DNA of 64,000 nt, from contig JAZARR010000267.1 of assembly GCA_037389465.1 (NCBI GenBank), positions 83,637-147,636 of the forward strand, given 5' to 3'. Numbering within the stretch: the first letter of the stretch is position 1; each line of letters begins with the position of its first letter. This stretch comes from Baylisascaris procyonis. Its lineage: Eukaryota; Nematoda; Chromadorea; Rhabditida; Ascarididae. A program made the position numbers and the translations under genes. The notes under the pieces were generated by a model that was not told the origin of the DNA, ran no database searches, and saw only the letters and a program-made list of their open reading frames with translations. This document shows positions 11,378-64,000 of the stretch, one piece after another.

Positions 11378-11447
11378 TCGTTGCCTGCGAGAATGAAATT
11401 ACAATTATGAAAATAACTGTAATATTAGAAGAGTTTCAGGAATCAGA

Positions 11448-11546
11448 ATGGCCACCATTGAAGGGAGCCATCAAAGCTTTGGATTTTCATTTCCATCAGT
11501 TGTTTATCAATTGCATACAGCTCAAGTGGTCGCATTATTCCTTGAG
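11448..11546 (+). CDS. Candidate exon 1 of paralogue A (left arm)
   Basis: ATG at 11448, 33 open codons and a donor (TTGAG/GTAATT) at 11547. It ends in phase 0, as exon 2 at 12001 requires. The encoded segment ends in a hydrophobic stretch (VVYQLHTAQVVALFLE). A second open frame (from ATG 11407, includes EFQESEWPPLKGAI) overlaps but ends in a different phase, so the frame choice rests on phase only. Identical in the right arm at 63832-63930. Confidence 0.3.
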
Positions 11547-12000
11547 GTAATTTGCATATTTTCGTTTTCATGAAATGAATTCCCCTCAGTTTATCTTCTA
11601 ACCCAATTCCCTATTGAGCATAATGGGGAGCGTATGTATGGGAAGAGTATTGCAATAAACATTTCGAGTATTTGTATATTTCTATAAATCCATCTTTTTT
11701 GTTGTTGATGTACTTACAAGTATTGGAGAATGAATCTGAACTTTAATTTATCAGGAACAAAGTTTTCCAATGTTTATCTATTCCATTTGAGTAGGCGGAT
11801 AGGAGAGAGGAGGAAAATTTCAAGCTTGAGATATGCAATCAGAAAAAATGGAAATATTAGCAACGAGTAAAATAAAAACGTATAATATCTACCTGCGGTA
11901 TGAAAAGGGAGATGCTGCTGAAAAAGAATGAATGCAGTGCACTATGATACATTTTGTTCTTCCAGTAGTTGTAGTTTGTGATGGTTGAAACAATTTGCAG

Positions 12001-12181
12001 GTGTGTATTCTCTATATGGAGTACGATCGCATCGGACTGTAATTCCTCATTCCTCTCGCAGTACACCTCCTTAACATATATCATATTGGCTTACGTCTCT
12101 ACTGCAATATTGATGGACGTTACGATCTCAAACAAATGATTTCCGTCAAATATATTAATATCAAAGCGAAATATGCTTTCG
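12001..12181 (+). pseudogene. Exon 2 of paralogue A, carrying an in-frame stop (left arm)
   Basis: Acceptor CAATTTGCAG ends at 12000, donor G/GTTAAG at 12182; 181 nt, phase 0 in and phase 1 out. It aligns codon by codon without gaps with the exon at 18600-18780: the shared pattern is P.AVH..N.YH.G.R.YC.IDGR.D.KQ..S. At the position where paralogue B has TCA this copy has TAA (12040-12042), so it is a pseudogene unless read differently. The right-arm copy has the same stop. Confidence 0.6.
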
Positions 12182-13060
12182 GTTAAGTATTAAGTGAAAG
12201 AAAAATGTATTATTAGAGAGGTTTCGCATAAAAACGCTATATGTAACTCTCTTGAGGATAAAGTGGATAGGTAAGTTCCAATGAGAGGTGGAGGGTGATG
12301 AAGGAATGGAAATTGGGCTAAAAGTTCTGAAATGCTTAGCAATAATTCGTTTCCGACGTTTTCATGATGAAAGACTCCAACTGATGCTTTTGATTAGTTA
12401 GCGACCGTGAGTTTCTTAAGTCATTCTTGTAATTTGGCTCACCTTTTCCCATCTGACCCCCTTTTTCGAGTGCTTTAAATAAATATTTGGATTAAAATTT
12501 GCAAGAAGTTAACGATTTATCATTGAATGAATATGAAGTCAGATGTTCGCAGGTAAGGTCCCATTCGTTGAAGATGAAGCTCACATTATGGGTGGAATTG
12601 TAGGATGGCTTCAAGATTACTGTTGAACTGCCAGCATACATAATGATTATTTTTATGGAGGCATCAGTAAGACACTGGAGTATGTGGTAAGGAGACTACA
12701 TTTAGAGGGACGACCAGAATGGATCAAATTAAGTTTGTATTTGTTCATAGTAATTCCTTTATAGAATTTTAGAGGTAATCTGTTCCTTATTTAAAACCTT
12801 CGATGACAGTAAGTTGGCTAGAGAATACTTTCCACAGAAACAAAGTGAGGTGGTGGAGGGAGGAATCAAGATAAGTGAACTTCGAATGCATTCGCATTTG
12901 ATTGCTGAGCATTTTCCCGCCTTGCGAAACTTGTTAAGCCAGTATGAATATCCTCGCATCAAGTTTCTAGCAAAACTTAAAATTGGTTTCACTTAGAAAC
13001 TTAAAATTCTTTCAGACTTTAATTTAGCTTGACAGTTCAGCAATTTCAAAATGTTTTCAG

Positions 13061-13230
13061 CTGTATTCGGAAGCGTTGTTTTGGAGTTCATTGGGCACTT
13101 TATTGTTGGTTCGATTCCATCAACCCTCAGTGCTCTCATATACAACCTTTCCGATTACGCATCATTGGTTGCCGCTAGTGGTGTACTCGCAGCCGAAATA
13201 TATGAAACATACAAACCCTCAAGCGAATAA
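13061..13230 (+). CDS. Last exon of paralogue A, membrane segment (left arm)
   Basis: Acceptor ATGTTTTCAG ends at 13060. The phase-1 join to exon 2 gives Ala, then VFGSVVLEFIGHFIVGS, a probable membrane helix, and a second mildly hydrophobic stretch (SLVAASGVLAAEIYE), ending at TAA 13228-13230. The first half matches the exon at 18972 (VFGSILLALVAHFVL) and the C-terminus also aligns (YASLVAASGV with YVSIACAGVV). The right-arm copy changes Glu to Ala and Phe to Leu in the helix. Confidence 0.5.
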
Positions 13231-15344
13231 AACACTCCAGTAAGTGTTGCTGAGTTTTCAACAATACGTTGTAGTAATAAATTTTTCGTTTTTAAATTTG
13301 CGTTTAACTTCGGTACTTTTCCTGTCGTTTGTGATTGCTGGCAAGGTCGTTTTTTAACAGTGTTGACTTTTAATTCGAAAATGATATGTTTTTGTAACTC
13401 TGCAATTTTTGTTGAAAACGAATGCAAAGTGTTGGCAAAAGAATGCGGATTCTTCTAGCTGAAGGGATGGACTTCTTTCTGAGCACGGAGGGTGATGGCT
13501 AACCAGTGAATAATTGGCGCCATGGGAGAGTGAGTATTACTCTTGAAAAGTTTTTTTCGAAAACCATGGTCACTTGCCAAAAATTTTGAAAGAAAAATTT
13601 CCACTGGAAAATTTGCAGACGTATTTTGGAACCAAAAGGTCGTCTACATATGTTACTACTGCGGTATACTGCTATATTAGAATTTTAAATTACGATACAA
13701 TATCGTAGGTATTTCTTCAGTGTTTTTATTTTACCATATATGTTTGCACTGAGCAGTTTTGGAGGTGATACAGTATGTGAATATCTGTAAATTTTTTATC
13801 ATTTATGATGATGAATTCGATTCGATGTTTCTTTATTAAAAAACAAACCTTGACAAGATGCCAGTATTCAAGAAAAAGCGCCACGTTTTGCAGTGGAGTT
13901 GAAGTATTTTCGACAATTTTGATGGCTGCTTTATTTGTCTGTAATAGCTTCAGTATCTTTGACTGTAGAGAAACACTGAAATTCTGCGATATACTGTAGT
14001 AAATTCACATTGCTTCGTTTCACTTTTCGTTTCTGTCACTCAGATAAACGATCGAAAACTATCATAGAGTGCCGAATAAGACCTGCCGGGTTTTGCATCT
14101 TTCTTAAAAAATCGGGTGAATAGCATTTAAAATAGGGGAGAAGTTTCAAAGGTAATTTTCCTCATCTTTGTGTGTTTTCATGGCTGAGTATTCATTTCAT
14201 TATATAAAGACGTTAATGGACACCTTAATTCAATAGCAAAAATTTACGATTCAAATTTTTATGCCGCGTTAAATGTTGCGGCTAGCATAAAACGATTTTT
14301 TCTGAAGGGCTTTGCAGAACTAATCAATTTCTTAAGATGTTTTTCAACTGTTTTTCGAAAAACTTCAGGACTGTTCGCCTGCCGTGGTGAGATGGAAAAG
14401 GCGCATATAGTTCTCTTTCCATGGCTCACTTATTTACTTATTTTACCGTTTCTCATTATTAAACAATAAACAGAATGCATCAAACGACGAAATTTCTATG
14501 AAGGAAAGAATATATTTCAAAATGAGCGCAAAATGTGAAAAAACGCAATCGCATAAACATTGCATCATTTTTCACAGACATGTGGTTTATGTCAAAGGTG
14601 CGATCCGTTTGTTTGAATTTGTTTTTTTTGTGTGTCAGCATCATCTTGTTTCAAATAAAACTTCTTTAAACGTCGTCTGCTGACTAAAAAGTTTCGTAAC
14701 ATAATTCAAGCATTAGAACATTTAACAAAAATTGGAATCGTGTTAACGTGTTGAAGCCAAATGTTAGCAGGGTGAGTCCATAATTTCAGCGTTATATCTC
14801 ACTTTTTCCTTCACATGCGGAATGCTGTGTCTGTGTTCCGCTTTCCCTTCCTCCAGCAATTTGCGCAATTTAATTTTTCTCTGTCCCTTATTCCCTACAT
14901 TTTAACAACTACAGTTGCTCATATTTGCATGCATACAGGCATATCTATAAAATGCGCCATATATACTTTCTATGTGTTTGCGTACACATATCTTGATTCA
15001 AATATATAAAACACAGCATGTATGAGTGTGCTACGAGTCCAAATTTGAATTATAGGCAGCAGTGCTTACATGTTCATTTGCTTACTTAATTGCGGCGGTG
15101 AAGAAATCAGAGCGCGCAATAATGTGTAATATTTTGAATATATTTATAATAAATTTCTGTTTGCATTTATATTTAATTGTATGTCTGTCCACTTGGAAGT
15201 ACTAACTCATGAAGCATCGAAGCTTGCAGTTACGAAATTTGTATATACTATAAGTTGACCACATATATTTCATACTGATCCACCGAATTTGGAAAAAAGT
15301 AACGCATATTACAAGTTAAAAGAAATCTGCAGACATTTTTCACT
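13231..15344. other. Arm interval without supported gene (mirror 60027-62146)
   Basis: AT-rich. Short frames at 13805, 14498 and 14815 (plus) recur in the mirror copy only because the DNA does. I see no paired splice sites or domain. A GGTTCGATTCC box just upstream at 13108 is not a tRNA. Confidence 0.4.
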
Positions 15345-15539
15345 TCACACCGGTCGAATAACTAAAGAGGAAATCTTTCGTGGGTGACTTGTACGATTGG
15401 CTAGGTTGATAAAAATGGTGAAATAATTTTGCATATTTATTGCTTGATGAAAATTTATAAAACTAGTTGAACAAATATGCAAATGCAAAGATTGTGTCAG
15501 CTGCTTTGGCATGTTTGTGCACTGTTTTCTTTCGAGCAA
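15345..15539 (-). CDS. Candidate last exon, unknown protein (left arm)
   Basis: An outward-strand frame of 64 codons ending at a stop at 15345, with ordinary composition (contains KQLTQSLHLHICSTS). It differs from the right copy (59832-60026) by one Ser/Asn change. There is no recognised domain and the exon start is uncertain. It may belong to the gene at 15810-16269. Confidence 0.2.
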   Translation of the reverse strand: MLERKQCTNMPKQLTQSLHLHICSTSFINFHQAINMQNYFTIFINLANRTSHPRKISSLVIRPV

Positions 15540-15809
15540 ATGATGAGCTAGTAATCTGATACCGGTTCAGTAAGTTTTCAAAGAGAATTCACAAATTATT
15601 GTTCGGCTTTTTCAGCGAAGCTAACCGGTGGGTGTCAAGAAAGCGGAGAAGCATAGCAAAGCAACTGACGTGATGTGCAGTTTTGCACTCCACTGAACTG
15701 ATCACATATCATCAAGAATAATTATTTTATGCAGAATATCGATTTAATATTTCCTTCATAGCACGGAAACAAATTTTATGCGTAAAATTTCTTGCATGCG
15801 CGGCTCTAT

Positions 15810-16269
15810 TTATGTGAAACTGAGGTCCGACTCAAGCAGTAAGGAGCAAATTTGTTGGCACTTCTGAATTACTACAACTTTTATTAAAACTGATGAACCA
15901 ACGTAACTCATGGTGCAGAAGAACATTTTTTCATGAACATTGTGCACGCCAAATTTATTTTGCAACTTCAGTAATTTCGAAGTTGAAACTATGGGAAGAG
16001 AGATGTACACATACACATGTGCCGACATAGCGTCAACATACTGCGATTTTGTAAAAGAATTCGGGAAAGGAATTTGCAGAAATGCAATAGAAAGTTCGAA
16101 TAAAATGTTCCAGCTTCGTCAGTGTTTCCTGCGTGCAAGTATTTATATGCAAATATTCCTCAATAAGTGATGAATGCAAACTTTGAAACGGCAATGCATT
16201 CAAGACTTCTGTTGTGATTTCGGTTGGTTCACTTTTGTTATTGAATAGTGGAGCCAGGAAAGGTTTCAA
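15810..16269 (-). pseudogene. Outward-strand gene fragment, split into two frames (left arm)
   Basis: Two frames of 78 and 72 codons that are one continuous 152-codon frame in the right arm. Near 16065 the left copy has one extra A relative to the right, which separates them. The upstream part is good coding-like sequence (TEITTEVLNALPF, SLIEEYLHINTCTQETL). The family is not recognised. A further open frame just upstream (right arm about 58990-59120, with GWRWEVPLRSALL) may be a preceding exon. Confidence 0.35.
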
Positions 16270-17332
16270 TCGTCAACTGTTCCTTCACTTGATACTCAGC
16301 TTTTAGCAAAGCACTAGGCAAAGGCACTTCCCACCTCCAACCTTCAGTACCACTATGTGTCAAGTGATGTCAGGAGCGCGTGCCATATTTACCATACCTT
16401 AGGCAACCATTGCAGCTTAGCGATCTTTAACCCCTACCGTTAGTCGAAATTTTCGGTTATCAGTTCTCGTAAGCACTAATAATTTTCACCGTAAGTACTG
16501 TAATTATTGCCTACACTTTTTCCATGTGAAACATAAATTATAACTTCAGAAATCTCAACGGTATACTTTGACAATTCCCTCTCATAACATTTTTGAGTAT
16601 TTACGAATACCTCTTTGCACCATTATTACCAGCCTGGCATTACTTGTTTCACTCAATAGCGTGATTCAATAGATTCGCCTAATGAATGATTCCTTTACAA
16701 CGAACTCACTTCTTCTGTGTTTCATGAGAAAACGTTCCCATTCTGCTATAGCCACTGTTCATCCTTACAGCCGTTTTTGGCAGACGTCGTTTAACTCCCC
16801 CTCTAGGCGCGCCTCACTTCTCCTCGTGCGGACTTTTTAGGAAACCGGTGACTTCGAGAGTTTTATCGAGGCGGCGTAGTAGCTGAACAAGTCAACTTCA
16901 GGGTGTTCATATTTCCTCAGGTTGGAGATTCACAGCAACTCACTGGCGCACAGTGTCGGTGACAGCTGCAAGACTTATCTTCCCTAGGTATCCTTCCATT
17001 AATCTAATAGTGAAGGTAGCGACTGCCGAATAAATTCAAATCACAAATGCAAGGACACTTAAGTGGAAGTTTACTGTCAAATGGCTGCCTTAACGAACAG
17101 GCTGACAATGCGGTTGCTATGCTGCTTGATGCCGAACACTCACTTATCATATCCGATGGATACTCACTTTTCATAAAGAATACAGTCAATGGAAGAATGC
17201 TAAACTAGACTAGATAAGAATGAATGGCCCATAAGCAGCATACACACAAAGTCCTACCAAGAAACGGAATTTTCTGCAGGAGGTAGGGGAAGGAGAAGGA
17301 CGGATAGGAGGAGCAGCAGGTAATGTACTCAC

Positions 17333-17400
17333 TCAGTATTTTTTCATCCCAGGTATTCTGCGTGCCACGACGTGATGTGCCCAATGCGACCTGTCAAAAT
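17333..17400 (-). CDS. Last exon of outward gene D (left arm)
   Basis: Mirror of 57975-58042 with the same splice signals and stop. Confidence 0.4.
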
Positions 17401-17447
17401 CTAAAAGTTTGAGTTTCAAAATTAGTCAACTGTGAAGTGAATGTTAC

Positions 17448-17558
17448 CTTCAAAAGCCTTCTTTAATGCGTCGTCAGTGATCTTAATTTGGATCACCCAT
17501 GCAGAGTGGATTGTAACAATGCATAAGCTTATTGCTCTCTTCTTCTTTCGGGAGGAAA
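17448..17558 (-). CDS. Internal exon of outward gene D (left arm)
   Basis: Mirror of 57817-57927; identical as far as checked. Confidence 0.4.
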
Positions 17559-17853
17559 CTTAGAGAAACACTAACTGCAAATTTGGGAATTTCCGGTATC
17601 CGATACCCAGTCAAACGATAGATAAGCATAGAAAGAATCGAAAACCTCTTCAACGAGTGCCGTAAAGAGTATGAATTTCTTGCGTTTGCATTATTATAAA
17701 ATTGTGAAAAACTTTGTCTAAGACAACCTCTATCAACATAGTGCTGCAATCCCAGTTTTGTAGTGATGAAAAAGATTATCTGCAAGATGCTAATTTTGAA
17801 TTACGAATTCTTGTTGTGGATTTTGCAAAAACTAATCCGTAACCACTGTTGGC

Positions 17854-18051
17854 ATGCAAATTGCTAAGCCCCAAAGTTTAGACTGGACGGTTAGCATGTT
17901 CAAGTTCGATTTGATGCGAAACTTTCCATTCTATGAGCAGATCATAAAACATAAAAGTGCTGTTTGCAGAAAATACGCTCAAATGACTAGCAGCAACCCA
18001 CTTACGAGCTCTACCCACGAATCGCATATAATATGCGAACTGCTCAGATGA
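17854..18051 (+). CDS. Candidate small frame MQIAKPQSLDW (left arm)
   Basis: 65 codons from a true ATG, identical in the right arm at 57324-57521 (minus), of even composition (contains MFKFDLMRNFPFYEQIIKHK). It lies 0.75 kb upstream of paralogue B on the same strand. No domain and no splice support, so function is unknown. Confidence 0.2.
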   Translation: MQIAKPQSLDWTVSMFKFDLMRNFPFYEQIIKHKSAVCRKYAQMTSSNPLTSSTHESHIICELLR

Positions 18052-18599
18052 TTACAGTTATCATTCAGGTGTTCCTTAAAGAGATTGAGGGTCATTTCTT
18101 CCAGTTTTCGAGAAAATGGTCAGCTACGAGGACTTGCATAGTGTGGCGAGAAGATCACCAATAGTTGCGCAACAACACTGCTGTTCCGGTGTTATACGCA
18201 ATTCCATAATGCGGCATCCTCACAGCTACAAGTTTCCTAATCGGTGCACACATAAAACATAAGTTACCATCTTAAATAGTTCTTTGTTACGATTGGATTC
18301 ACTGTTCACTAAAGTGCTGAAGATTTCCGGTTAGGAAGGGGACTATTTGCCTCAGAGGACAGAGGGGAGGCGGTTTGCCAGAATTTTCTTTTGAAACGTG
18401 AGATTTAATTATTGAAAATGGAGTGTTGATTACAGTTGCAAGGAAAAAATAACTCACTTTCACAATAAGCCGATTGCAAACTTCTGAAAAAATTTCCCTC
18501 CCACATGAAAATTCGAATTTGGAACGATAGCCACTCTGTGAACCCTTAACGGCACATGTGTACCGGGGCGGTTTTGGCTTATACGACAAATTTTTACAG

Positions 18600-18780
18600 A
18601 TAGCAGTCCTGTATTGGGAGTCCGAACGTCTTGGAATATCATTTCTGTTCCCTGCAGCGGTACATGCTATCAACTTGTATCATACCGGTTATCGTTGGTA
18701 CTATTGCATCGACGGTCGTCATGATTTCAAGCAGCTTCTTTCTATGAATGATTTCAACTATAAGCTGCCCTATATTTTCG
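18600..18780 (+). CDS. Middle exon of paralogue B, small membrane protein (left arm)
   Basis: Acceptor AATTTTTACAG ends at 18599 and donor TTCG/GTTCGT follows; 181 nt, the same length and phases (0 in, 1 out) as the exon at 12001-12181. The residues include LYWESERLGISFLFP, AAVHAINLYHTGYRWYYCID and GRHDFKQLLS, with no stop. This is a nematode-type family I do not recognise. The pattern of hydrophobic and Tyr/Trp-rich segments suggests membrane association. An upstream exon equivalent to 11448-11546 was not found; an open ATG frame at 18117 (MVSYEDLHSVARR) is a weak candidate. Confidence 0.5.
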
Positions 18781-18971
18781 GTTCGTATCCAAATATTTTT
18801 TTAGCAAGAAGAATACCGTAGAAATGTATTTCTCTTTATTTCATGAGAAATAGAGAAATGAAATGCGTGAGAGACATTGAAAAGAACAGCAGCAGTCATA
18901 AACGACTGCAAGAAACATTTATTTCGCACAACACGTTTCTTATATGATGATGCTGATGCACTTGATTTCAG

Positions 18972-19122
18972 GAGTATTTGGGAGCATTTTGCTTGCTCTA
19001 GTGGCACATTTTGTGCTTTATATCCCAGGCTGTATCGCATATTCAGGTATGTATCGATCGCATGTGCTGGAGTGGTGATTGCTGTTGAATTTCTTGAGGC
19101 AGTTTTGAGCAAACTTATATAA
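18972..19122 (+). pseudogene. Last exon of paralogue B, frame-displaced (left arm)
   Basis: Acceptor TTGATTTCAG ends at 18971. The phase-1 join gives Gly and then VFGSILLALVAHFVLYIPG, a clear membrane helix equivalent to the exon at 13061. The C-terminal homology (YVSIACAGVVIAVEF) continues in a frame displaced by minus one, with its stop at 19120-19122; the original frame stops at 19076-19078. Both arms share this state. It is either a damaged gene or a one-base deletion error; GTATGT after position 19047 could also be a donor. Confidence 0.45.
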
Positions 19123-19209
19123 AGCAACCTATATTTGTGTGCAACCTTTAATAAATATGAGGCTGCGATGTCCTACTACAGGGTTTTATTAGCAAGGATG
19201 TTTATTCAG

Positions 19210-19417
19210 GTGGCACTGTTTCTTTCAACATTTTGGCAACAATCCAGCAATCGTATATAGCCCATGAGCATGCAAAAATAGTTCATCTTCCTGAATTTCT
19301 TGATGAAATGATGGAAAAAACTTTGTTGTGGAAGATTTGGGAGGAACGGGGAGGAGGAAACTTGCTGAAGCCGAAATTTTTTCCTGCGAAACTGAGAAGC
19401 GATATATTTCACTAAGG
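19210..19417 (+). pseudogene. Exon of unknown gene V, missing one G (left arm)
   Basis: Acceptor TGTTTATTCAG ends at 19209, donor CTAAGG/GTAAGG at 19418. The frame (TIQQSYIAHEHAKIVHLPEF, then EMMEKTLLWKIWEE) is good coding sequence but is lost after the GGAGGAGGAAAC run, where the right arm has one more G. The right copy shows the intact version. Confidence 0.45.
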
Positions 19418-19668
19418 GTAAGGTTTATTTGAGGCTGTTAGACAGGTTAAAGTGTTCGCTTTTTGCAACATTATTTGCTACTCTTCTTTTTAAATGAAAG
19501 CATTTGTATAACATTGAAAAAAAGTTCGCTAACGTTGGCTAGCAGCGTCATTTATGTGTGGCAACCTCTACCATTCGGCTAGTCGAATATGTTTAATTTC
19601 TGTACTAGAAGACCTGTAGAAAACAGCATAAGCTTTGCAAACTTCTTTTACCAATTTCTACTTTCGAG

Positions 19669-19834
19669 TATGGTTTTATGAAGTGGGGCTCGAAAATCGA
19701 GAAATTGAAGCCACTTTGTTGAGCAAACCAACGTCAGAGCTAGAGATCAGAGGTATCCGATTGGCCAAAGTCACCAACGAGATTCCAATTTCATCTGAAT
19801 TCGAAAACTTTGGGTTGGTGAAATATATATTTTG
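19669..19834 (+). CDS. Candidate exon of gene V or a neighbour (left arm)
   Basis: Acceptor-like CTACTTTCGAG ends at 19668 and a strong donor TTTTG/GTAAGT lies at 19835. The open frame includes YEVGLENREIEATLLSKP, SELEIRGIRLAKVTNEIP and ENFGLVKYIFW. The composition is clearly protein-like, but the phase (1 in) does not match the exon at 19210, so an exon is missing or the boundary is wrong. Confidence 0.4.
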
Positions 19835-20519
19835 GTAAGTGATAATTATCAACTATTCTATGAGAGTTTCAATAGAGACATTTTGTAGCAATATTCTTGC
19901 TAAGCTATTTAATGAAGGAAGTAGAAAGGGTTGATTTTTTGAACTAAATATCTCATTCCTTGGTCTTATTGGCGCCATATAATCGCTTCGGGAAAAATCT
20001 AAACACTATGGCTGAAAGCTGCCAAATACTAAAATTTGATCGAATTTCGTCCTGAAAAAGAGTTCTGTTTATATCACGCGTCAAGTCTTCCGCAAATCGG
20101 AAAAATCTGAATTCCGATGGAACGCGAGTTTTGTCATTAACCTTTCGAACGACAAAGGTATGTTCAGCATTAAGCGACGACCGTTCTCCTCCATATCAGA
20201 TCATGAAAATAAGGGTGTCACATCATTCGCTTCCTCTGCCATGAAATGCGGCAATAACTGCTCATTTGATTTCATTAAAAAACTCATTCATCGAGATATC
20301 TAATCACACACCTAAAATCTCCGGCCTTATCAGTGTACACAGTTAGTGGAGTTATTATCCGAAATTCCTTCTCAATCATTTTGCACTAAAGCAATTTTCA
20401 CTTCAAATGTGTTCGGATCTGTAAAGGGCGAAATCGAGAGTTCTGTAAGGGTGTTTAGTTTGTCTTGAGGTTTTCACCATGTACTCTGAGAAGCCGGCAC
20501 AGTAAAAGAAGTCAAGGTT

Positions 20520-20789
20520 TTATTCAACGCTTAAAATAAATTGACGTAAAACGGCACACAAATAAGGAGATCGGGGATGGGGAAGGGAGGACGAAGACTT
20601 GCCCAACACGGCCTCCGCACTATCCACAGTGCCCCTGTGCGATTGACGATCATAGCACGCCGCTCCAACGCCGACGCACCCGATGCTCTTCGAATCCGTC
20701 AGGAACATCGAAACTAACACTGACTCTGCAAGCAAATACGCTCCCCCGAGTTTTGCCTCAAGGCATTTATAGACAGGTTGTTCAACCAT
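20520..20789 (-). other. GC-richer block with outward 89-codon frame (left arm)
   Basis: A locally GC-rich island in AT-rich DNA. The outward frame from ATG (MVEQ..YKCLEAKLGGAY) is matched in the right arm (54585-54854) with a few changes. Upstream in the same frame an imperfect duplicate of the start (DQTVYECFDDL against EQTVYKCLEAKL) suggests an old tandem duplication or repeat-derived sequence. I suspect a dispersed repeat but cannot name it. Confidence 0.3.
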
Positions 20790-22666
20790 GAGATCATCAA
20801 AGCATTCGTAGACAGTTTGATCTGTCCTGTGTTCGTCCTTTCTACTGCTCTACACGGAAGCAGTTGATCTGGCCTTTGCTGATATTCCTTGCAGTTCCTC
20901 GTTGTTTAGCGTCTTATCAGCGCTACTTAATGGCACTTCTATATTTAAGTAATAGCAATCGCCGATGTGCACCCATGCGCCTGCATGCATTTTTCATTAA
21001 CCCATCAGTGCATTTATTTGCATATTGGGGTGGAATTCAGTAGTTTCTGTTGTTTTTCACCACCTGTTAACATAATCTGCAGAATAAAGGTAAAAATGCA
21101 CGCACTGAACAACAAATCGAGAAAATGTTCAAGGGTGAAGAAAGTGACGGAAAATTTCATTGTCCACATGCTTCATAAAATTCATCTACAATAGATTAAT
21201 ACCATTTTTAAAACAGACTTTTGTGAAACGTCCTTTTGAAAAATTGTCTTTTTTCAAAGCGCTTGGAAAGCTAATAAATCAAAAGAAATGCCGCTGAGAT
21301 AAAACCGCTAGAATTGTTCTTAGCAGCACTTCTCATCAGTTTACCGTTCTGTCATGAAATTGCCTAAGATTTCAAATGAAATTCGAGAGGCTTCTATTAT
21401 GAGGTTATTTCGAGTCATCATGGACTAATACCTTCTTGAGAAAACAAAGTGCTTAAATTGGGCCAGGACACTTCCGAAGATTCTTGAGTAGATTCTAGTA
21501 TGAAGGAACTTTGCCGTAAGTCTGATTCAAAAATCTCAATAATGTCATTGTGAGACCTTCGCCGTTAAATAACTTCGCTGCTTACACCTTTCCAACATAA
21601 TGGAAGAAAAAATGGCATTGATGGCATGGACCGGCTTTTCAATGCATACATGGGCAAGCACTTTCCGTTCCGCCTAAGTCTTCTCTTAAGTGAATTTTTC
21701 TACTTTCTCCTTTTTGAATCTGCCGAAAAAATTACATACTAACATGTATCTAGTTCTGTCAGGAAAATCGATCAGAAAAGTCGTCAGCAAACACAATTAG
21801 GAAAAATTTATATATTAGAAGCAAGATCAACTTCTACTGCTTGACCACTCTCACAATATTATACTTTCGTTGTGTTTACATCATCCGCAAAGCAGGTAAG
21901 TGCGTTACAGGCATCGCGAAAAAGACGTCAAAGTGAATTAACGGCTTTATTATTTTACGAAATAGCGATAACTGGAGTGATACCCAGTGCATCTGACCTG
22001 TGCAACAAAATCGATCATCACAATTACTTGCCGTGGTTTGCAAAATAAAATTAAATGTTCTTTATCCAAACCGATTTTAAAGAACGTCGAAATCCCATGA
22101 AGATCCACCAGTTTATCACAAAAATAGGAAAAGTTCTAGCCGATTGGTAAAACATGTACTTTTATCTGAAAATCTTCATCAAAGCTGGACCACAAAAGGT
22201 TCCAGACAGAAACAACTGCGGATGCTTCTAATCACATTTTTAATTTATTTGTTGAGATAGGACAAGCGCTTTGCTTGTCACTCCCCTTTCCCTTTCCACA
22301 TATCTTAAACAGAACGCTATTAATCTGTCGGTCGCTAGTTACACACAGGGTAACAATTGTTCCACAGCCTCCTTTCCCACCTGATTTACAGACTTCTTTT
22401 GTATCACAACTCGAAGGCAACGTTGAAATGGCGACGTTTTGAATCGAGTGAAACGACAGGAGGAAAATTAGCTAGGAGCGCTTGGAGTATCGGGAAGGAA
22501 CGCTCGGAAATGTTTGAATGATGGAAACGCCACTACCAACGGTGTACCAACGGTAAGACGAGTGCTTTGATGGTAAGAAGACCGAATGGGCCTGAAACAT
22601 AGTGGAAATTTCAAAAATTCGCGGATTTTTCGGACAAAGCGCTGAATCATATAAAAATGTCATGAG

Positions 22667-22667
<1 letters not shown>

Positions 22668-22707
<40 letters not shown>
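22668..22707. repeat. (TA)n microsatellite, left arm, proximal
   Basis: About 20 TA units. The right-arm equivalent is 52708-52748. The sequence just to its left (about 40 bp) is missing in the right arm. Confidence 0.95.
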
Positions 22708-22709
<2 letters not shown>

Positions 22710-22838
22710 GTCAACATGGAGAAGAAAAGCAGTAGACAGATCGTTATGGAAGGGCCCATGCGGAACGTCGCCACGGGACTGTCTGTTGCGACAGGGACAT
22801 CTCGTTGAATAACGACTTCTAAGTAATGTAAGTAAGCA

Positions 22839-22864
22839 ATATATATATATATATATATATATAT
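22839..22864. repeat. (TA)n microsatellite, left arm, distal
   Basis: 13 AT units; the right arm has 11 at 52556-52577. Together with 22668-22707 it brackets a GC-richer island. Confidence 0.95.
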
Positions 22865-24645
22865 CCATTTTGCATAAAAAAAATCGCGTTTTCATTTTTC
22901 ATCCGAGCCCATTTTCCATTCAACTTTCTAGCGAGGATACCGCATAACCCACTGATTTGCTTATATGTATTTCCGAGCAAAATTAAAGTTTTCTTTTCAG
23001 TTTCATATGATCTCAGTTTTTCAGTTTTTGGTGTCGTTCGCGGTTTGTTCTACATAAAGTCCATAAATCGATGAATTCGGAGGCCTTTTAAATTTCTCGA
23101 TATGCCAGCTGCAGTTTATATCACTCCTGCTACCGCTGAGGTTCAAGTTGCAAATTTTTCTCCACTTAGTCACTTTAAGATCTAAATGAGTGTTGTATTA
23201 GGCGGAAAGCATCAAAAATAAGATTGATTATGGTCGAGGTTGGTGCACGAAAAGGATTATTTAAACGTTGACCAATTCGGCACGTAATAAAATGTGAGAC
23301 CGACAATGTGACCTTCCATTGATCAATTCATGCAGAAGTTCTTCTTCACGTTAATGAGCAGATGCATACATAATAGTCATGCAACAATGTACCTATGAGG
23401 CAGATTGGTGTTTTACCGGCATTAGTTCAGTTTACGCATTGTTTTAACGCTTTACCTCTAGCGAGATGCACAAAAAATAGCACTCTGAAGACAACAAAGG
23501 AAATGTCTTCTCAAACGGCGACAAGTTCAGATAACAACTGCTGGTGGTCTTTCAAGACATCGAATGTTGTGTGTTGGAGATCAGCGTGTCGCTTTTAAAG
23601 TAAAACTAAAAAGTCGATATTTCAAATATTACAAGGTTGGCATAGCACATCTGTTTCAAAATGAAGTATTCTATGAAGTTTGGAATGTTTATTTAAATTC
23701 AGTAGGGCTCTAATTTTGTTGATATCACGATGTGCACTTTTTGACACTCTTCTTCAATACATCTGCAATCTAACTTTTTATTGTTTTATTTGCTGTCCAA
23801 TGATTTTTTTCGTGATACATCCGTCATACATTCCTTTTATTACTCGTTCGGTGTCTATCATTTTTTCGCTTCCATTAAGATTCTACAAAAGTTCTTTGAA
23901 ATCCACTATCTGGTTAAGTTTGCTTCTTTCTTTCCTTGTGGATTCCTCCAGCGCATAAATTCATCAAATACATACTACCACTATTCTGCACGTAAATTTC
24001 GTCTAGATTCAGTTGCTAACCTTTCAGTCTCCAAATTTTCTTAATGGCAAGCTTCTAATCTCTACTACTTAGTCAGTTAACCTACCCCTCCCCCTCCCCA
24101 CTCTTTTGATTTCTTATGTTTTGTTATCTTTATCCACTATTGTTGAGAACATCGCGTTGATCTTATATTTTCTGGCAGTTATCACCACTCTGAGTGACCC
24201 TCGCTCAAATAAATACGGTGATAAAACTGAATGATAAAAGTGAATCTCGATGTGAAAAGACCTCATCTTACCACACTATCTTCTGACTATTTAAAAATCG
24301 CGACTGTTCATCAAAAATCAGATTCCCCTAATTTGCGTGCTTGTTTCGCTGTGGTTTCGCTGTGAGTTCATCATCCTCTCGATCAGTATATCAGCCCATG
24401 CACATCCCAAAGAAAGTGTTCTTTTTTCCAAAAAAAACTCTCAAGGTATTTCTATGTGACGTGATTATTTCATTTTCACTGAAAATTAAGAAATGCGTTT
24501 TTTTTTACTTTTCAGTTTTCTTCACTCTTTCATCGCAGCGCTCGTGAACTTTTAGTATATCGCCGGATATGTATTACATCTGAAAAAAAATTCAACTCAA
24601 AAATAAATGATGCAGTGATAATTGAAGCTATCGTGAAATTCAATT

Positions 24646-24861
24646 CTACGGGTAGTCTAGTCCACCTGTAAGATAAACTGCCCTAATAACGGCATGAAGA
24701 AGGGCAGATAATGAAATCCGTTCAATTTTTAAATTAACAATCTTGTTGTGAGACAATTCCCTCACAAAAGCATTCGAGAGGGATGTCGACGTCACGAGCC
24801 TTTCTAAAATTTGTTCCTCACATACGTCAGAGCCCCAATCCTCATGAACTTCCTTGGTCAT
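24646..24861 (-). CDS. Small outward gene candidate, 71 codons (left arm)
   Basis: True ATG start, acidic N-terminus (MTKEVHEDWGSDVCEEQILE), helix-prone middle (LSNAFVRELSHNKIVNLKIE) and a C-terminal hydrophobic segment (ALLHAVIRAVYL). Identical to the right-arm copy. A CTTACAG/GTGGAC near the end could be a splice site. No family recognised. Confidence 0.35.
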   Translation of the reverse strand: MTKEVHEDWGSDVCEEQILERLVTSTSLSNAFVRELSHNKIVNLKIERISLSALLHAVIRAVYLTGGLDYP

Positions 24862-25346
24862 CGCTGCCAGTTAGATAGGCCGTCTCTAGCCAATATCAGG
24901 CTATTTTACATCATATGAGACTGGCCCCGTCAGTGGCGAGTGTTCCTGTAAAGCTGAACGCGGCTTCTCAAATTATGTTTGGCCGGGTGATATATGAACA
25001 GTTGAAGTCACGGTTGCTGCTCCATCCGTGAGAGTGCGTCAGAAAAACACCGGTGATAATGCCGTCGTTTATTTAGAACCTTAGCACGATAATGTTGGCC
25101 GTTTATTAGAGCCGAAAGACGAGCAATAATCATTACAAATAGGTTATGAAAACACCATCGACGCAAACAAAGCCGCCACTACCTGTTCATTTCCGAATAC
25201 GGCCATCGAAGGGGAAATTATAACCCGCAGTGTTAAAGAAATCAAGACCAATCGAACGAACACAGCTTTGAGCAAAACAACTTGCCATATTAAATTAAGA
25301 TAAAAGAGATCGCAATAAACTACTTTCGACGTTAAAATATAACACA

Positions 25347-25604
25347 TCACTCTTCACCAAGACCTTTACTCACAAATTCCCACACTTCTTTTCTAGCATT
25401 TCCTGTGAACAATAATTTCCACAATAAGGGATAGTATAGCACAACCGACAAAAGGGGCAGTAATAAAAAGCAAGTTATTGTCTTTATGCAACAACCTTCA
25501 GATAGTGATTTCATGAAAACAGCAAATATATGGGTGCATTGGTATTTCTGAAAACATATGAGCAATTTTTGAATTTTCGACAAGTGCAACATAATGCGCC
25601 GCAC
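25347..25604 (-). CDS. Candidate last exon of an outward membrane protein (left arm)
   Basis: An acceptor TATGTTTTCAG occurs inside the frame, followed by KYQCTHIFAVFMKSLSEGCC, a long membrane helix (TCFLLLPLLSVVLYYPLLW) and a polar tail KEVWEFVSKGLGEE before the stop. It reads open in the left arm only. An overlapping hydrophobic frame at 25144-25350 is less convincing. Confidence 0.4.
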   Translation of the reverse strand: MRRIMLHLSKIQKLLICFQKYQCTHIFAVFMKSLSEGCCIKTITCFLLLPLLSVVLYYPLLWKLLFTGNARKEVWEFVSKGLGEE

Positions 25605-27149
25605 GGGACAAACTAAAAGTCACTTATTGTGGCTTTCTTGAGATTGTCTTATTTCTCGCGTCGATTTATTAAAAAAAAAACGCTATTCCTCTCATCTATA
25701 TTGAAAAGGAGATGAGAATCGATGATATTCCAGTAACGTGGTCGATCCTGAGGTGACGAAATAATTTCTGAATGCATAAACCGACTTAAAACGAGCTGAT
25801 CAAATACTCCACTCTTACTCGATTAGAAGCAACGCAACAATTTGCATGGCTATTCATCTTCATTGATATACTTGTAATTAACCATATTAAACTGTTTTTC
25901 ATAAGAAATGACCAGTCGCAAATGTGACAGCAAATGAAAGAAATTTCGTCATCAACTCATGCGGTAAATTTTTGACGATAGGTAGTAAAGTCAATGATGG
26001 AATTTGAAGAAAAGGATACCAAATGTTGGATGCTCATATTTTCAAACGGTCAATTCAAAACGAACGATCTGTACGAGTGCAACTACTGTGATGAGTAATT
26101 CGGTGTTACTCATTCAATGCAAATACAGCAAACTGTGAGATGTGTTTTGTTGTCGGCACCTAGCATCTTGTGTTGTTATCACATGAGGCCACCAGTGAAT
26201 GACATGAGGTGCTCCTCGCATATAAAGTATCTCTCAAATTTGCGATCTCTTGCAGAAAATAATTTATTGAAGAGTTACGCCGTTAAATAACAACTCTTTG
26301 AAAGCATGAGCACGATTTATGTTTAAAAAAAAACATTCTCGCTCTTCCTTTATAGGCCATTTGCGAGAACATAAAGTAGCAATTCTCGAGAGAAAGCAGT
26401 TTCCGCTCTCACCACCACTTTGAAGGAAAACTTTCATTTCAGGTGGCATGATGGTTTGAGAGAATCCCCCTTCATAGACACCCCTTTCGCCAAAGATTTT
26501 CTTCTGAACCTCGCTGCATTCATATGTGAGTGTTAAGATGTTTCAAAAGAGATGTTGACAAATCGTTTTTTCCAGCCCGGGAAGGTTGGTGGCAATTATT
26601 TGTCACCGCGTTACATAATCGCGCCTTCCTGCTATGACCCTCGAGAGCCATTCATTAGAGGCGCTGAAATTGGCGAAACTAAATTCAAAATAATCAGTAA
26701 GTTTGTTCGCAATTGAAGTATTTTTACGCTGGCGATATTTGTTTCTAAAAACAGAAAAATTCGCGAGTAATGTAGTTTGAATGTATAGTACTAGTAATTT
26801 TATAATGAAACACATATCAAAATTGCAGTGGAGAAGAAATAAAGACTGTGGAAGATGAGGAAGGCAACATCATCGCTGCCTGTTCCTCGTTTATTCAAAA
26901 GTAGACAAATAAATTGCGTCTGATCTCTTGCTTCATTTCTTTCTTTCTTTCTCATTGGTGAAGTTAAAATCCAATAAATAGGAAAATAATAAACGCAATG
27001 TTGAAGTATGCATTAAATGGCGGAAACACTCTTCGCCATTTTCACTGTGATGCTATGAACTGCCGTCATTTGAAATCTACAAAGTGCTTGTCGGACCATT
27101 TCCGTTCCATGCGTAGCTCTGTAGCTACTCTGGCCCCGAATGAATTGTC

Positions 27150-27165
27150 GCGCCGCTTTTATAGC
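27150..27165 (-). promoter_or_regulatory. TATA-like box CTATAAAAGC on the outward strand (left arm)
   Basis: A perfect TATAAAA in a GC-richer patch on the minus strand, about 40-60 bp upstream of an ATG (MERKWSDKHFVDF). Mirrored at about 48246-48261. It is not matched to a convincing gene, so promoter function is speculative. Confidence 0.25.
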
Positions 27166-27236
27166 CTCGTCGAGATCCGTCGTTCGCATCCATAGCCGCT
27201 GGTTATCTTGATGACAATGTTGTCAGTTAGCAGTCG

Positions 27237-27542
27237 TTGGAATGTGCTGTGAGAGCGTTTGAAGTCTTAGTCATATTGTTTTGTCTTTTTGCGTTCATGA
27301 AGAATTCGATTCGAAGATCACTTCGACAGTGCTCTTTCATAAACCATCGGATAACAACAGCTCTAATCTCTATGATTTGTACAGCCGTTTGTCATTTTAT
27401 AGTTGTTGATGGTGGAGTCATAACTCACAATGACATCTCATTTGGAATAACTGTTACTGACAAAGGACAAATTTGGAGGTGCAAACAGGTCGGTGATCTG
27501 CACTCTACATCAATTCATTCAACCATTGTAAGTGCAGGCTGA
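27237..27542 (+). CDS. Membrane-protein exon candidate (left arm)
   Basis: An open frame with ATG at 27297 (MKNSIRRSLRQCSFINHR), a membrane helix (TALISMICTAVCHFIVV) and an ectodomain-like stretch ending in GQIWRCKQVGDLHSTSIH, closed by a donor ACCATT/GTAAGT. This resembles the first helix and loop of a small multi-pass protein. It may be upstream of 27576-27854 and 27961-28208 in one gene; phases could not be reconciled. Mirror: 47869-48174. Confidence 0.35.
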   Translation: MECAVRAFEVLVILFCLFAFMKNSIRRSLRQCSFINHRITTALISMICTAVCHFIVVDGGVITHNDISFGITVTDKGQIWRCKQVGDLHSTSIHSTIVSAG

Positions 27543-27575
27543 ATTTAAAAAAAAAGACTGAAATATGAATATTTA

Positions 27576-27854
27576 ATGTCGGTCATTCGATTAATCCAAA
27601 TAATGGTTGTATTTTTGATAGTTCAATCTCGGATAAACAGTAGGTGTCGTACAATGACATTTCAATTGTTCGTTGTTTTTCTTTTTTTTTGCGTGAGCTT
27701 AACTATGTTGATTGCAAAATTTAGCGATAGAGATGAGACAGCGGGAATGTTAGGTGATTGTTGGAATATTCCAGTCGAAGTTGAAGTGACTGGAATTAAC
27801 TCAGTGTTAACAATTGAGCATTTACACGCAGTGATAGTCACACTAACATCTTGA
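27576..27854 (+). CDS. Membrane-protein exon candidate, second part (left arm)
   Basis: An open frame with a strong helix (FQLFVVFLFFCVSLTMLIA) followed by a polar segment containing DETAGMLGDCWNIPVEVEV. The mirror frame in the right arm (47556-47795) is shortened at its start by a one-base difference. No family recognised. Confidence 0.3.
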   Translation: MSVIRLIQIMVVFLIVQSRINSRCRTMTFQLFVVFLFFCVSLTMLIAKFSDRDETAGMLGDCWNIPVEVEVTGINSVLTIEHLHAVIVTLTS

Positions 27855-27960
27855 TAAAATTTTTTCATTGTTTCAAAGCACCTTTATTCGGATGGCATAG
27901 CTAAGCAACCTGCCTAAAAATGCATGCTGCTAAACTACAACACCCATATTTTTCTTCCAG

Positions 27961-28208
27961 TGGATTACTGACTGGTGGATTACTGATGGTACATGTGGAA
28001 AATTAATTACATTACTGGATTCGAAAAAAGCTACTAACCTAACGGGGTGTGGTGGTGAAAAATAGGGAAAGTGGAAGTCGCATTTCATGATGTGCCCGGA
28101 AGCGGTCTTTCTGGAGCAATACAAGGCATTGTCACGATAGGCTTCTTTGTAGCAACTCTAAATTGTCTGATGTACATTTCAGTCAGTAGAAGAAGAGATA
28201 CGTATTGA
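27961..28208 (+). pseudogene. Last exon of a membrane protein, one frame break (left arm)
   Basis: Acceptor TTTTTCTTCCAG ends at 27960. The first frame (WITDWWITDGTCGKLITLL, then a Cys-containing segment) reaches TAG at 28063 inside a GAAAAATAGGG run. The minus-one frame continues VEVAFHDVPGSG, a membrane helix (GAIQGIVTIGFFVATLNCLM) and a basic tail SRRRDTY with TGA at 28206. Both halves look coding, so the break is either a mutation shared by both arms or an under-called A run. Mirror: 47202-47449. Confidence 0.4.
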
Positions 28209-28699: not shown

Positions 28700-30749
28700 T
28701 GTCAACTATTGAAATAATGAGAAGGAGTGTTCAACAAAAACGCCGATAGCAAATGAAATCATTCGAAAGACTAGAAGGACGAGGAACGAATTGTTTACCC
28801 ATTTCCAACAAGTGGAAGAAATGCATTTAGCTCATTCATAAAATATACGCCGAAAGCGCAATCTTTTTTAAACACTAAGTTAGACAACAGAGATCACCTT
28901 CAATACTCTTTCATCGAACATCACTCAACGGTTTTATAGTTGAATTTTTGATTTATCTCAGCGAATGCTTAGATATTTTTGATATAACCGCTGAAGTTAG
29001 GTATACCAAAAGCTGCGAGAGGAATTGAATTTGCGGCAATACCTTATTATTATAATTTTACGATTATCTATTCAGCAGAAGTACTTGTGGAGAATTCTGA
29101 CAATGACGATAAAAGACAACGTTTGTTTCCATCTTTCTCTTATTTTATGGTGACTTTTTATCATAAATGTTGAGATATATAATCCTTCTGCCTTTCAAAG
29201 GAGTGGTCGCTTATTGAAAGCTATAATTATAAAATAATCAATATTCTACAAAAGATTTAGAAAAAAACGACTAGGAACAGAAAATTCCTCGCGGAATTCA
29301 ACATATTCGATCTTTTGGCAGCCTAAAAGAGAATGCGTTTAGCTTTCAAGAAGATGAGACAGGAAATTGATGCGTTTAAATGTGCTCATCATGACAACGC
29401 TGGAAACCAATTAGTCTCTTTTTTCGTTTCCTTTTGCTTTCAAATTCCTTGAAAGCCAACACATTTTGTGGATAAAACAGCATTTCTTTCATATTGCTTA
29501 TGAAGTTAACGAGAAACCATTAAGTTAATTTTACTGCAGTTTCTTTTCACATTAATTTTGTAAATGAAATTCAACAATGAACCAACTTTAAGTAAGTAGT
29601 GAATTCTTGATGACAGTTTGAAAGGTACATTGAAGAGCAAAAGAAACTCACTTTTGTATGAACTTCCTGAGATGCAATCCTGCTGCCCGCATCACATTCT
29701 AAGGCTGAGGTTTAAAGATCCAAGATGTTCCCTCAAGCAGTAAAGGTTTTTCGGTCGATTGGTCGAATAACAAAGGCTGCCAAACTTCAATGACCAAATA
29801 TTTTGGAAAATAATGACCGAATATCCTAGAAAATCTTCTTGTTTTTACTTTTCAACTTCTTGCTTCAAGTGAAACTTGAAAATCTTCACATGCTAACTTT
29901 ACCTTTTTAAAACTTCATTATCGCTCACCTTTAATCACAAAGAACTTATCTGATCAAGGTCCTTGAGCCAATCCTTGAGCCAATCGAATTTTGAATAGTT
30001 GACAGTTATTCTTTCCTGAAGTTCAGTTCGACTAGTTTTTGGATTTACTGCTGTAAACGAAACGACGTTAACTTCTCAAAAGTTTCCATCTTCTCTATTG
30101 CTGCGTGTAGATTTCGCATACATCTGTTTAATTTCATAAACTGGATGGGAAAATCGCAAATTTTTGGCCACTTATTGGTGTATTAAATTCAAAAGATAAA
30201 AACCGAACTTGTTCAATCGATTCATACGCTGCATAGTAACTCATACATACTCAGTATTACAAATTGATGTTGAAAAAAATGCGCCGAACGTCTGCTGTGC
30301 CGTTTCGAAAAATATATTGTTTCATTGCACGTGAGGAAGCGTGACTTTCTCGGAATTTTTATCGTTTCATTTCGAAAAAGCCAAATATTTTTTTCAAGTG
30401 TTTCATCTATCCCATTTTGGTTATTTCGAAGTAATTTTATTTTCATTCTTATTTTGAGATCCTTGAATGGGAAAAGCACAAAAGGTAAATGAATAAGAAG
30501 AATATATCAATAAAACAAATAATAAAAGCAACAACAAAATGAAAAAAGTAGAACGATCGCAGAGTATTTCGAGCAAATAGACTCAGACACCTTAGGGGTT
30601 AATGTGCCATAACAGCAATAATTTGACGATCAAAAACTAATCGCAGTGACGTTACTCCTTTATTTTTTGCATAATTTGATTTGACTTCTTGTGCATACAG
30701 AAGAGTAATGAATTTTTTCTTATTTCATTGAATTTGTTTCGATTCACAG
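28700..30749. other. Arm interval without supported gene (mirror about 44660-46710)
   Basis: AT-rich, many short A and T runs, no long open frame and no matching splice pair. The only unusual item is a short direct duplication of TTGAGCCAATC at about 29965-29985. Confidence 0.45.
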
Positions 30750-31857: not shown

Positions 31858-31890
31858 GGTCCGAACGAGAACCGAGTTCTGCATCTTCCG
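31858..31890 (+). CDS. Micro-exon of gene C (left arm)
   Basis: 33 nt between a perfect acceptor (ATTCTTTTCAG) and a donor GTAATT. Phase 1 in and phase 1 out give SEREPSSASS, matching the Ser/Arg/Glu style of 30750-31261. Phase agrees with the next exon at 32011. Confidence 0.4.
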
Positions 31891-32010
31891 GTAATTTTAA
31901 AATGTGTACATCTGCTCAATCATTTAAAAGTTAGCAAGTGTTGGCAAAAGCAGACCATAACGGTACGTCGCGGAGCGTGGAGAAAATTGATTAACTTCTT
32001 CTCCTCAAAG

Positions 32011-33056: not shown

Positions 33057-33160
33057 GTGATATCCTACCTATGCTTATTGAACGCATATAGGACAAAGAG
33101 TCCTGGAGTTTTAATCGGTCCCATTTCATGCTTGATCGCAACTTTTGCCTTCATTTTTAG

Positions 33161-62146: not shown

Positions 62147-62316
62147 TTATTCGCTTGAGGGTTTGTATGTTTCATATATTTCGGCTGCGAGTACACCACT
62201 AGCGGCAACCAATGATGCGTAATCGGAAAGGTTGTATATGAGTGCACTGAGGGTTGATGGAATCGAACCAACAATTAAGTGCCCAATGAACGCCAAAACA
62301 ACGCTTCCGAATACAG
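62147..62316 (-). CDS. Last exon of paralogue A (right arm)
   Basis: Mirror copy of 13061-13230. The helix reads VVLAFIGHLIVGS, two conservative amino-acid changes from the left copy and an intact frame. Confidence 0.45.
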
Positions 62317-63196
62317 CTGAAAACATTTTGAAATTGCTGAACTGTCAAGCTAAATTAAAGTCTGAAAGAATTTTAAGTTTCTAAGTGAAACCAATTTTAA
62401 GTTTTGCTAGAAACTTGATGCGAGGATATTCATACTGGCTTAACAAGTTTCGCAAGGCGGAAAAATGCTCAGCAATCAAATGCGAATGCATTCGAAGTTC
62501 ACTTATCTTGATTCCTCCCCTCCACCACCTCACTTTGTTTCTGTGGAAAGTATTCTCTAGCCAACTTACTGTCATCGAAGGTTTTAAATAAGGAACAGAT
62601 TACCTCTAAAATTCTATAAAGGAATTACTATGAACAAATACAAACTTAATTTGATCCATTCTGGTCGTCCCTCTAAATGTAGTCTCCTTACCACATACTC
62701 CAGTGTCTTACTGATGCCTCCATAAAAATAATCATTATGTATGCTGGCAGTTCAACAGTAATCTTGAAGCCATCCTACAATTCCACCCATAATGTGAGCT
62801 TCATCTTCAACGAATGGGACCTTACCTGCGAACATCTGACTTCATATTCATTCAATGATAAATCGTTAACTTCTTGCAAATTTTAATCCAAATATTTATT
62901 TAAAGCACTCGAAAAAGGGGGTCAGATGGGAAAAGGTGAGCCAAATTACAAGAATGACTTAAGAAACTCACGGTCGCTAACTAATCAAAAGCATCAGTTG
63001 GAGTCTTTCATCATGAAAACGTCGGAAACGAATTATTGCTAAGCATTTCAGAACTTTTAGCCCAATTTCCATTCCTTCATCACCCTCCACCTCTCATTGG
63101 AACTTACCTATCCACTTTATCCTCAAGAGAGTTACATATAGCGTTTTTATGCGAAACCTCTCTAATAATACATTTTTCTTTCACTTAATACTTAAC

Positions 63197-63377
63197 CGAA
63201 AGCATATTTCGCTTTGATATTAATATATTTGACGGAAATCATTTGTTTGAGATCGTAACGTCCATCAATATTGCAGTAGAGACGTAAGCCAATATGATAT
63301 ATGTTAAGGAGGTGTACTGCGAGAGGAATGAGGAATTACAGTCCGATGCGATCGTACTCCATATAGAGAATACACAC
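63197..63377 (-). pseudogene. Exon 2 of paralogue A with the shared stop (right arm)
   Basis: Mirror copy of 12001-12181. The same in-frame TAA is present, so the stop predates the arm duplication or was spread by gene conversion. Confidence 0.55.
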
Positions 63378-63831
63378 CTGCAAATTGTTTCAACCATCAC
63401 AAACTACAACTACTGGAAGAACAAAATGTATCATAGTGCACTGCATTCATTCTTTTTCAGCAGCATCTCCCTTTTCATACCGCAGGTAGATATTATACGT
63501 TTTTATTTTACTCGTTGCTAATATTTCCATTTTTTTCTGATTGCATATCTCAAGCTTGAAATTTTCCTCCTCTCTCCTATCCGCCTACTCAAATGGAATA
63601 GATAAACATTGGAAAACTTTGTTCCTGATAAATTAAAGTTCAGATTCATTCTCCAATACTTGTAAGTACATCAACAACAAAAAAGATGGATTTATAGAAA
63701 TATACAAATACTCGAAATGTTTATTGCAATACTCTTCCCATACATACGCTCCCCATTATGCTCAATAGGGAATTGGGTTAGAAGATAAACTGAGGGAATT
63801 CATTTCATGAAAACGAAAATATGCAAATTAC

Positions 63832-63930
63832 CTCAAGGAATAATGCGACCACTTGAGCTGTATGCAATTGATAAACAACTGATGGAAATGAAAATCCAAA
63901 GCTTTGATGGCTCCCTTCAATGGTGGCCAT
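63832..63930 (-). CDS. Candidate exon 1 of paralogue A (right arm)
   Basis: Mirror copy of 11448-11546; no difference seen. Confidence 0.28.
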
Positions 63931-64000
63931 TCTGATTCCTGAAACTCTTCTAATATTACAGTTATTTTCATAATTGTAATTTCATTCTCGCAGGCAACGA

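Follow-up and report, generated by a model that had tools for sequence, protein, structure and literature searches.

The stretch of DNA analysed here, called the window, comprises 64,000 nucleotides of the nematode Baylisascaris procyonis (bases 83637-147636 of contig JAZARR010000267.1, assembly GCA_037389465.1) and carries a large palindrome, in which two near-identical arms lie inverted around a spacer of 519 bp. The palindrome is probably genuine and of a known type, with a size and a pairing that are unusual for a nematode. It is best explained, with reasonable likelihood, as a germline inverted duplication that was formed by fold-back and later duplicated as a pair, its arms being kept alike by exchange. 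All comparisons were made within one assembly (272.8 Mb, 293 contigs), the contigs of which are designated by C and a number, C265 being that of the window; positions are window coordinates unless a contig is named. In keeping with a nematode genome, two adjacent segments of C152 match the major sperm protein 1msp, which is from Ascaris, at 79% and 83% (the second with one TAG), the higher value setting the organism apart from Ascaris itself; at least 52 places match the sperm-protein family, which includes other proteins too.

In self-comparison, positions 11378-37447 and 64000-37967 form a single continuous inverted match of 99.379% identity over 26,103 alignment columns, with 60 mismatches and 40 gap openings, which is far beyond chance and bears out the initial annotation in its reading of one inverted repeat with near-identical 26-kb arms and a 519-bp spacer. 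The sum of paired positions spans 75371-75423 across the arms, slightly wider than the 75375-75421 first given, and is near enough to constant that the arms contain no internal rearrangement, as had been claimed. The extent of the repeat had been set as the right-hand part of the window from 11378; the match is present there, but its limits are those of the contig. C265 (147,636 bp) ends at position 64000 and 11378 therefore merely mirrors the contig end, so neither outer edge is biological. A second contig, C130, covers the same locus in reverse: C130 444349-472604 corresponds to C265 147636-119436 (99.6%) and C130 473001-503413 to C265 119039-88611 (99.8%, reverse), the 396 bp at C130 472605-473000 lying outside the comparisons. 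The left arm on C130 matches that of the window up to a retrotransposon and resumes beyond it to C265 84328, which is window position 692. The overlap gives an arm length of about 28 kb without the insertion. The parts of the palindrome, with the arms of the window named a3 and a4, are as follows.

692-1328, forward strand: outermost part of the left arm, outside the retrotransposon (99.5% to C130 442082-442718 in the mirror arm).
9743-11377, forward strand: part of the left arm between the retrotransposon and 11378, whose mirror lies past the contig end (C130 442711-470435 matches C265 93376-121083, 99.73%).
11378-37447, forward strand: left arm, a3 (99.38% inverted match to 37967-64000).
37448-37966, no strand: spacer of 519 bp, unduplicated between the inverted arms and read as a fold-back loop.
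37967-64000, reverse strand: right arm, a4, an inverted match to the left arm, cut by the end of C265 at 64000.

The origin of the palindrome may be read from the junction at its axis, which falls in a dispersed repeat, here called R.

37343-37970, forward strand: dispersed repeat R, interrupted at the right-hand edge of the spacer and continuing in three relatives.
37444-37447, forward strand: AAAT, left member of a 4-bp inverted microhomology, from comparison with uninterrupted copies of R.
37967-37970, forward strand: ATTT, right member of the same microhomology, from the same comparison.

Copies of R in C135, C255 and C93 extend unbroken beyond the point matching 37970 (518 bp are alike in all three, and similarity past the junction goes further in C255 and C93), whereas in the palindrome R stops at 37970 and the DNA folds back. 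None of the three copies has an inverted partner within the 3.5-3.7 kb examined, and those in C255 and C93 have no adjoining arm sequence within the same distance. A palindrome built on a transposon with inverted ends of its own was rejected, since these three relatives lack an inverted partner over that distance. The cut in R, the 4-bp inverted microhomology and the 519-bp spacer together are the signature of a fold-back inverted duplication: the spacer is single-copy, the short inverted homology stands at its edge and the sequence past the junction is unrearranged in the relatives. The available part of a report on human fold-back junctions describes inverted homology of 2-8 bp at 13 sequenced junctions, with the spacer representing the loop (PMC3907307). 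In Baylisascaris, a DNA end broken or stalled inside the dispersed repeat would have undergone resection and then folded back to pair with itself at AAAT/ATTT, 519 bp apart, and copying from this fold-back would have produced the palindrome with the loop as its spacer.

Instability is to be expected of long palindromes with short spacers, and the initial annotation had held that one with so small a spacer must be either biologically notable or an assembly product; of these, a simple assembly artefact is disfavoured, as discussed below, and the 519 bp find an explanation in the loop.

The palindrome of the window is one of two linked palindromes, a pairing that was not visible to the initial annotation. 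On the same contig, C265 1-11344 mirrors 23230-11844 (99.49%), and C265 1-32333 mirrors 132972-100595 (99.35%); the two palindromes are thus in inverted order, with the same axis and with axes about 110 kb apart. The other one is also found on a further contig, since C266 1-42039 matches C265 43359-1238 in reverse (99.25%). Because C130 and C266 each overlap one of the C265 palindromes, each palindrome has been assembled in two contigs, and the same axis occurs at four places in the assembly (both C265 palindromes, right and left, and those of C130 and C266). Compared in pairs, the four spacers with margins of 60 bp have 1-5 mismatches and 4-21 gap columns. Such a same-junction pair would be left by duplication of the whole palindrome, inverted, about 110 kb away, although the order of events is a matter of interpretation.

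Good evidence for two physically separate arms comes from an insertion of 8.4 kb, present in the left arm only.

1324-1328, no strand: target-site duplication GATGT, left copy of the 5-bp repeat flanking the BEL/Pao element.
1329-9742, forward strand: BEL/Pao long terminal repeat (LTR) retrotransposon in the left arm, with 593-bp LTRs 99.83% identical and the Pfam families Peptidase_A17, RVT_1 and Integrase_H2C2.
9743-9747, no strand: target-site duplication GATGT, right copy of the same repeat.

The mirror arm on C130 has an empty site with a single GATGT, and C266 has the same. The element is young and its insertion postdates the formation of the palindrome. Its last open frame (7399-9417) matches Monjiviricetes_fusion, a viral fusion-glycoprotein family (E 1.7e-20), which suggests a captured envelope-like gene.

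Arm-specific variants point the same way. Six arms were compared, namely two assemblies each of a2, a3 and a4, where a2 is the sole arm of the first palindrome in the set. There were 61 informative columns. Both assemblies of a2 are united by 32 of them, which separate the palindromes rather than the arms within one, because a2 is the only first-palindrome arm included. Support at the level of the arm comes from the 12 sites that unite both assemblies of a3. Three sites join a2 of C265 to the right arm of the window, and at two the right arm of C130 and both arms of the window stand apart from the others. Four further patterns are represented by a single site each, and in one of these the two window arms are united. 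The one-arm LTR insertion and the 12 a3-specific variants shared across contigs show the arms to be distinct physical copies.

Copies of the arm elsewhere were sought with probes of 700-800 bases, long DNA queries having missed the locus of the window itself. Arm sequence was found on five contigs: C265, C130, C266, C135 and C133. The probes match C135 with 95, 95 and 97% identity, and two of the three match C133 with 100%; none matches either contig more than once. Both C133 and C135 gave no match to the axis fold, though they carry arm copies. By the spacing of its matches, C133 is without about 6.3 kb of the arm. Its arm sequence stops where the match 82719-84846 ends, and the 504 bases of C133 past that point had no counterpart among the sequences compared.

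The differences between arms are unevenly distributed, and this bears on how the arms have been kept alike. Differing sites were counted in an outer part (13,700-28,000) and an inner part (30,390-37,447), and the contrast was assessed by Fisher tests, which take linked sites as independent: the window arms differ at 42/14,235 sites outside and 5/7,051 inside (p=0.0005), and those of C130 at 20/14,299 and 1/6,662 (p=0.005). The corresponding counts are 9/1,911 and 1/7,045 in the left palindrome of C265, and 599/12,982 and 8/7,035 in C266. The arm differences closest to the spacer lie, in left-arm coordinates, at 36620 and 34052. Copies outside the palindromes have no such inward drop, as far as they were sampled. 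Divergence between the window and C135, taken in 1-kb bins, ranges over 2.3-6.4% at 25.4-30.4 kb and over 2.6-5.6% at 30.4-36.4 kb; further out, the base-by-base control, which covers 25.4-36.6 kb, adds only 341 columns at 21.4-21.7 kb (10 mismatches), and the probes give identities of 97% at 12.5 kb and 95% at 19.7 kb. The outer arm of C266 differs from the window by 3.6, 4.3 and 5.5% in three bins over 11.4-26.5 kb. Arm a1 of C266 switches type at about 29,390: outside that point its distance from C135 is 0-2.5% and from the window 2.3-4.7%, and inside the values are 2.5-5.0% and 0-1%.

The inner-outer contrast, together with the lack of such a drop in the outside copies as far as sampled, suggests arm-to-arm gene conversion. 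Exchange focused on the axis fits the pattern, part of which a consensus from mixed reads could imitate. Exchange between arms, strongest toward the axis, would keep the inner 7 kb of the sampled arms near-identical. The proposal of gene conversion in the initial annotation thus gains plausibility from the lower divergence near the axis, even if the fall is not a smooth one.

A rather unlikely alternative is that the palindromes are real and recent but undergo no gene conversion, their inner identity being made of consensus errors from cross-arm polishing. Arms near the axis are barely distinguishable, so that mis-polishing would hide differences there, and same-arm pairs compared between contigs also fall inward. 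However, the switch of type in C266, where the arm outside is 4.6% diverged, would be hard to obtain by polishing, and all four palindromes, taken contig by contig, repeat the inner-outer contrast.

Several observations weigh against a fold-back origin followed by exchange, and the limits given above for the Fisher tests and the C135 control belong among them. The structure is known from assembled contigs alone. Of 100,000 fold-back points placed at random in the same arm, 2.1% have an inverted microhomology of at least 4 bp, a chance level that makes the one at the junction only moderate evidence. In C135 a block formed by R and the neighbouring 300 bp is inverted relative to the arm, and this contig is therefore not a clean ancestral state. 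In the C265 copy of the second palindrome about 8 bp are missing at the junction and the mirror extends about 6 bp further. Arm identity is not clean either: none of the 61 informative sites unites both assemblies of a4, and eight group both C130 arms with the left arm of the window against its right arm and a2. The inward fall of the same-arm pairs, less strong than between arms, has p=0.13 for a3, p=0.13 for a2 and p=0.03 for a4. Mean pairwise difference among the six arms, in seven bins from the outside inward, is 0.393, 0.313, 0.407, 0.061, 0.184, 0.062 and 0.044%, which describes a drop at about 25.5 kb and not a smooth slope. Finally, C265 terminates inside arms at both ends, and for a1, an arm of the other palindrome, C265 and C266 conflict over the extent to which it is palindrome-like (69/1,607 differences).

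The contig ends, the conflict over a1 and the lack of a4 sites would also suit an assembly artefact, in which fold-back reads or a wrong walk through a repeat graph made mirror contigs from one real arm. Such an explanation is unlikely on balance. Further points in its favour are that C130 ends just outside an arm, that C133 and C135 carry arm copies without the axis fold, and that fold-back read artefacts are known to exist, according to the portion available of a study of them (PMC12870357). Against it stand the same axis with a near-identical spacer in four assembled places, the one-arm insertion with its target duplication and the 12 a3-specific variants common to two contigs. Moreover, the spacer of 519 bp compares with a default of 200 bp for calling fold-back artefacts in the same portion of that study (PMC12870357), and its presence means that the immediate return which is the hallmark of such artefacts in long reads does not occur here.

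The palindrome had been described as gene-bearing, each arm with several exon chains, so that all arm genes would exist as mirror pairs. A limited test gave no support to either statement. Of 200 stop-to-stop frames of at least 50 amino acids in 9743-37966, 17 were scanned against Pfam; 16 had no match, and one had a weak RNase III-like match (16.2 bits, cut-off 35). For part of the longest frame (30752-31258), 103 candidates were compared and none proved a relative at E 0.001. Exons were also sought by an excess of silent changes against C135 over 25.4-36.6 kb, where the differences within overlapping frames of at least 28 codons, both strands included, number 959 changing and 341 silent. In the longest frame there are 10 changing differences to 4 silent ones, and in a 72-codon frame (30274-30489) 1 to 5; nothing convincing emerged and no long frame had a clear excess. 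The arms would thus contain no recognised genes within these tests, and short or unusual genes may be present. A plastid-type repeat was rejected, since neither a tRNA (under bacterial settings) nor an Rfam family reaching the gathering score was found in the window.

These limited gene searches tell against an ampliconic palindrome of the sex-chromosome type, kept by selection for the gene copies in its arms. In size and identity the arms do resemble the palindromes of mammalian and willow sex chromosomes, as far as the available parts of those sources describe them; the idea is nonetheless very improbable. The least probable reading, a giant mobile element with long inverted ends, would account for arm sequence on five contigs, but three of these overlap into one locus set and the other two have single or truncated arms, the tested frames contained no transposase, and R in C255 and C93 has no neighbouring arm sequence in the 3.5-3.7 kb already mentioned.

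The neighbourhood of the two palindromes appears to be a wider complex of duplications. The region between them is matched by C133 at two probes (100%), with a spacing of 29.8 kb compared with 37.6 in C265. A second element, the direct end repeats of which measure about 1,151 bp and are 99.2% identical, lies at C265 62322-70052 and is apparently absent from C133 by this spacing; the shorter distance would fit the absence of this 7.7-kb LTR element. An inter-palindrome probe also matches C130 414752-415551 (100%) and C266 98011-98792 (94%). Between the palindromes, a frame at C265 71116-71391 resembles Pumilio repeats (PUF) at E 0.05, below the cut-off, and the flank outside the palindrome at C130 439101-439900 is repeated at 96% identity on C177 near 4.277 Mb. 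The arm itself harbours two dispersed repeats with copies on many contigs, one at 20444-20894 (about 450 bp, 72-80% identity) and one at 27089-27328 (about 240 bp, 93-99%). A further one lies near the axis.

36580-37041, no strand: dispersed repeat of about 460 bp, with 76-88% copies on C255, C276, C130 and C132 and a mirror at about 38373-38834 by the coordinate sum.

A more specific history can be proposed tentatively, in which the linked pair would descend from a single microhomology-mediated fold-back in a mobile repeat, the four arms would exchange sequence mainly around the shared axis, and axis-less versions would persist in the same genome on C133 and C135. If true, this would provide a natural progression in which a single copy becomes a palindrome and then a palindrome of palindromes. 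A readable birth junction, uninterrupted relatives, an ordering of events by a one-arm insertion and the contrast in divergence make origin and upkeep testable in an animal other than a mammal, and the case would show that such palindromes need not be built around genes.

Among the papers listed by literature searches, none concerns large near-identical palindromes in a nematode, judging by titles and the openings of abstracts; in the available parts of two nematode reviews the word palindrome concerns other matters (PMC9071541, PMC9894435). The comparisons that follow are likewise drawn from the portions of each source at hand. Palindromes in Folsomia candida (PMC5490193, with Adineta vaga as cited there) are also inverted collinear blocks in an invertebrate genome, in asexual animals, but were recognised there through gene order and have a wide range of Ks, whereas the present ones were recognised through near-identical DNA. 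The inverted repeats maintained in Caenorhabditis (PMC1803023) are nematode inverted duplications whose arms stay similar; they differ in that two examples are built around gene pairs, their intergenic arms measuring 124-160 bp and their spacers 126-414 bp, in contrast to arms of tens of kb without recognised genes. Palindromes of sex chromosomes maintained by conversion, such as P6 of the human Y (PMC3723533) and those of the primate X (PMC8981503), share arms more than 99% identical and exchange inferred at the kilobase scale. In Baylisascaris, by contrast, no genes were found in the arms and identity peaks near the axis. A parallel in mechanism is offered by human fold-back inverted duplications (PMC3907307), which also have an unduplicated spacer read as a loop and a short inverted microhomology, of 2-8 bp there and 4 bp here; those are patient rearrangements beside terminal deletions, whereas the Baylisascaris palindrome lies within an assembled genome and occurs as one of a pair.

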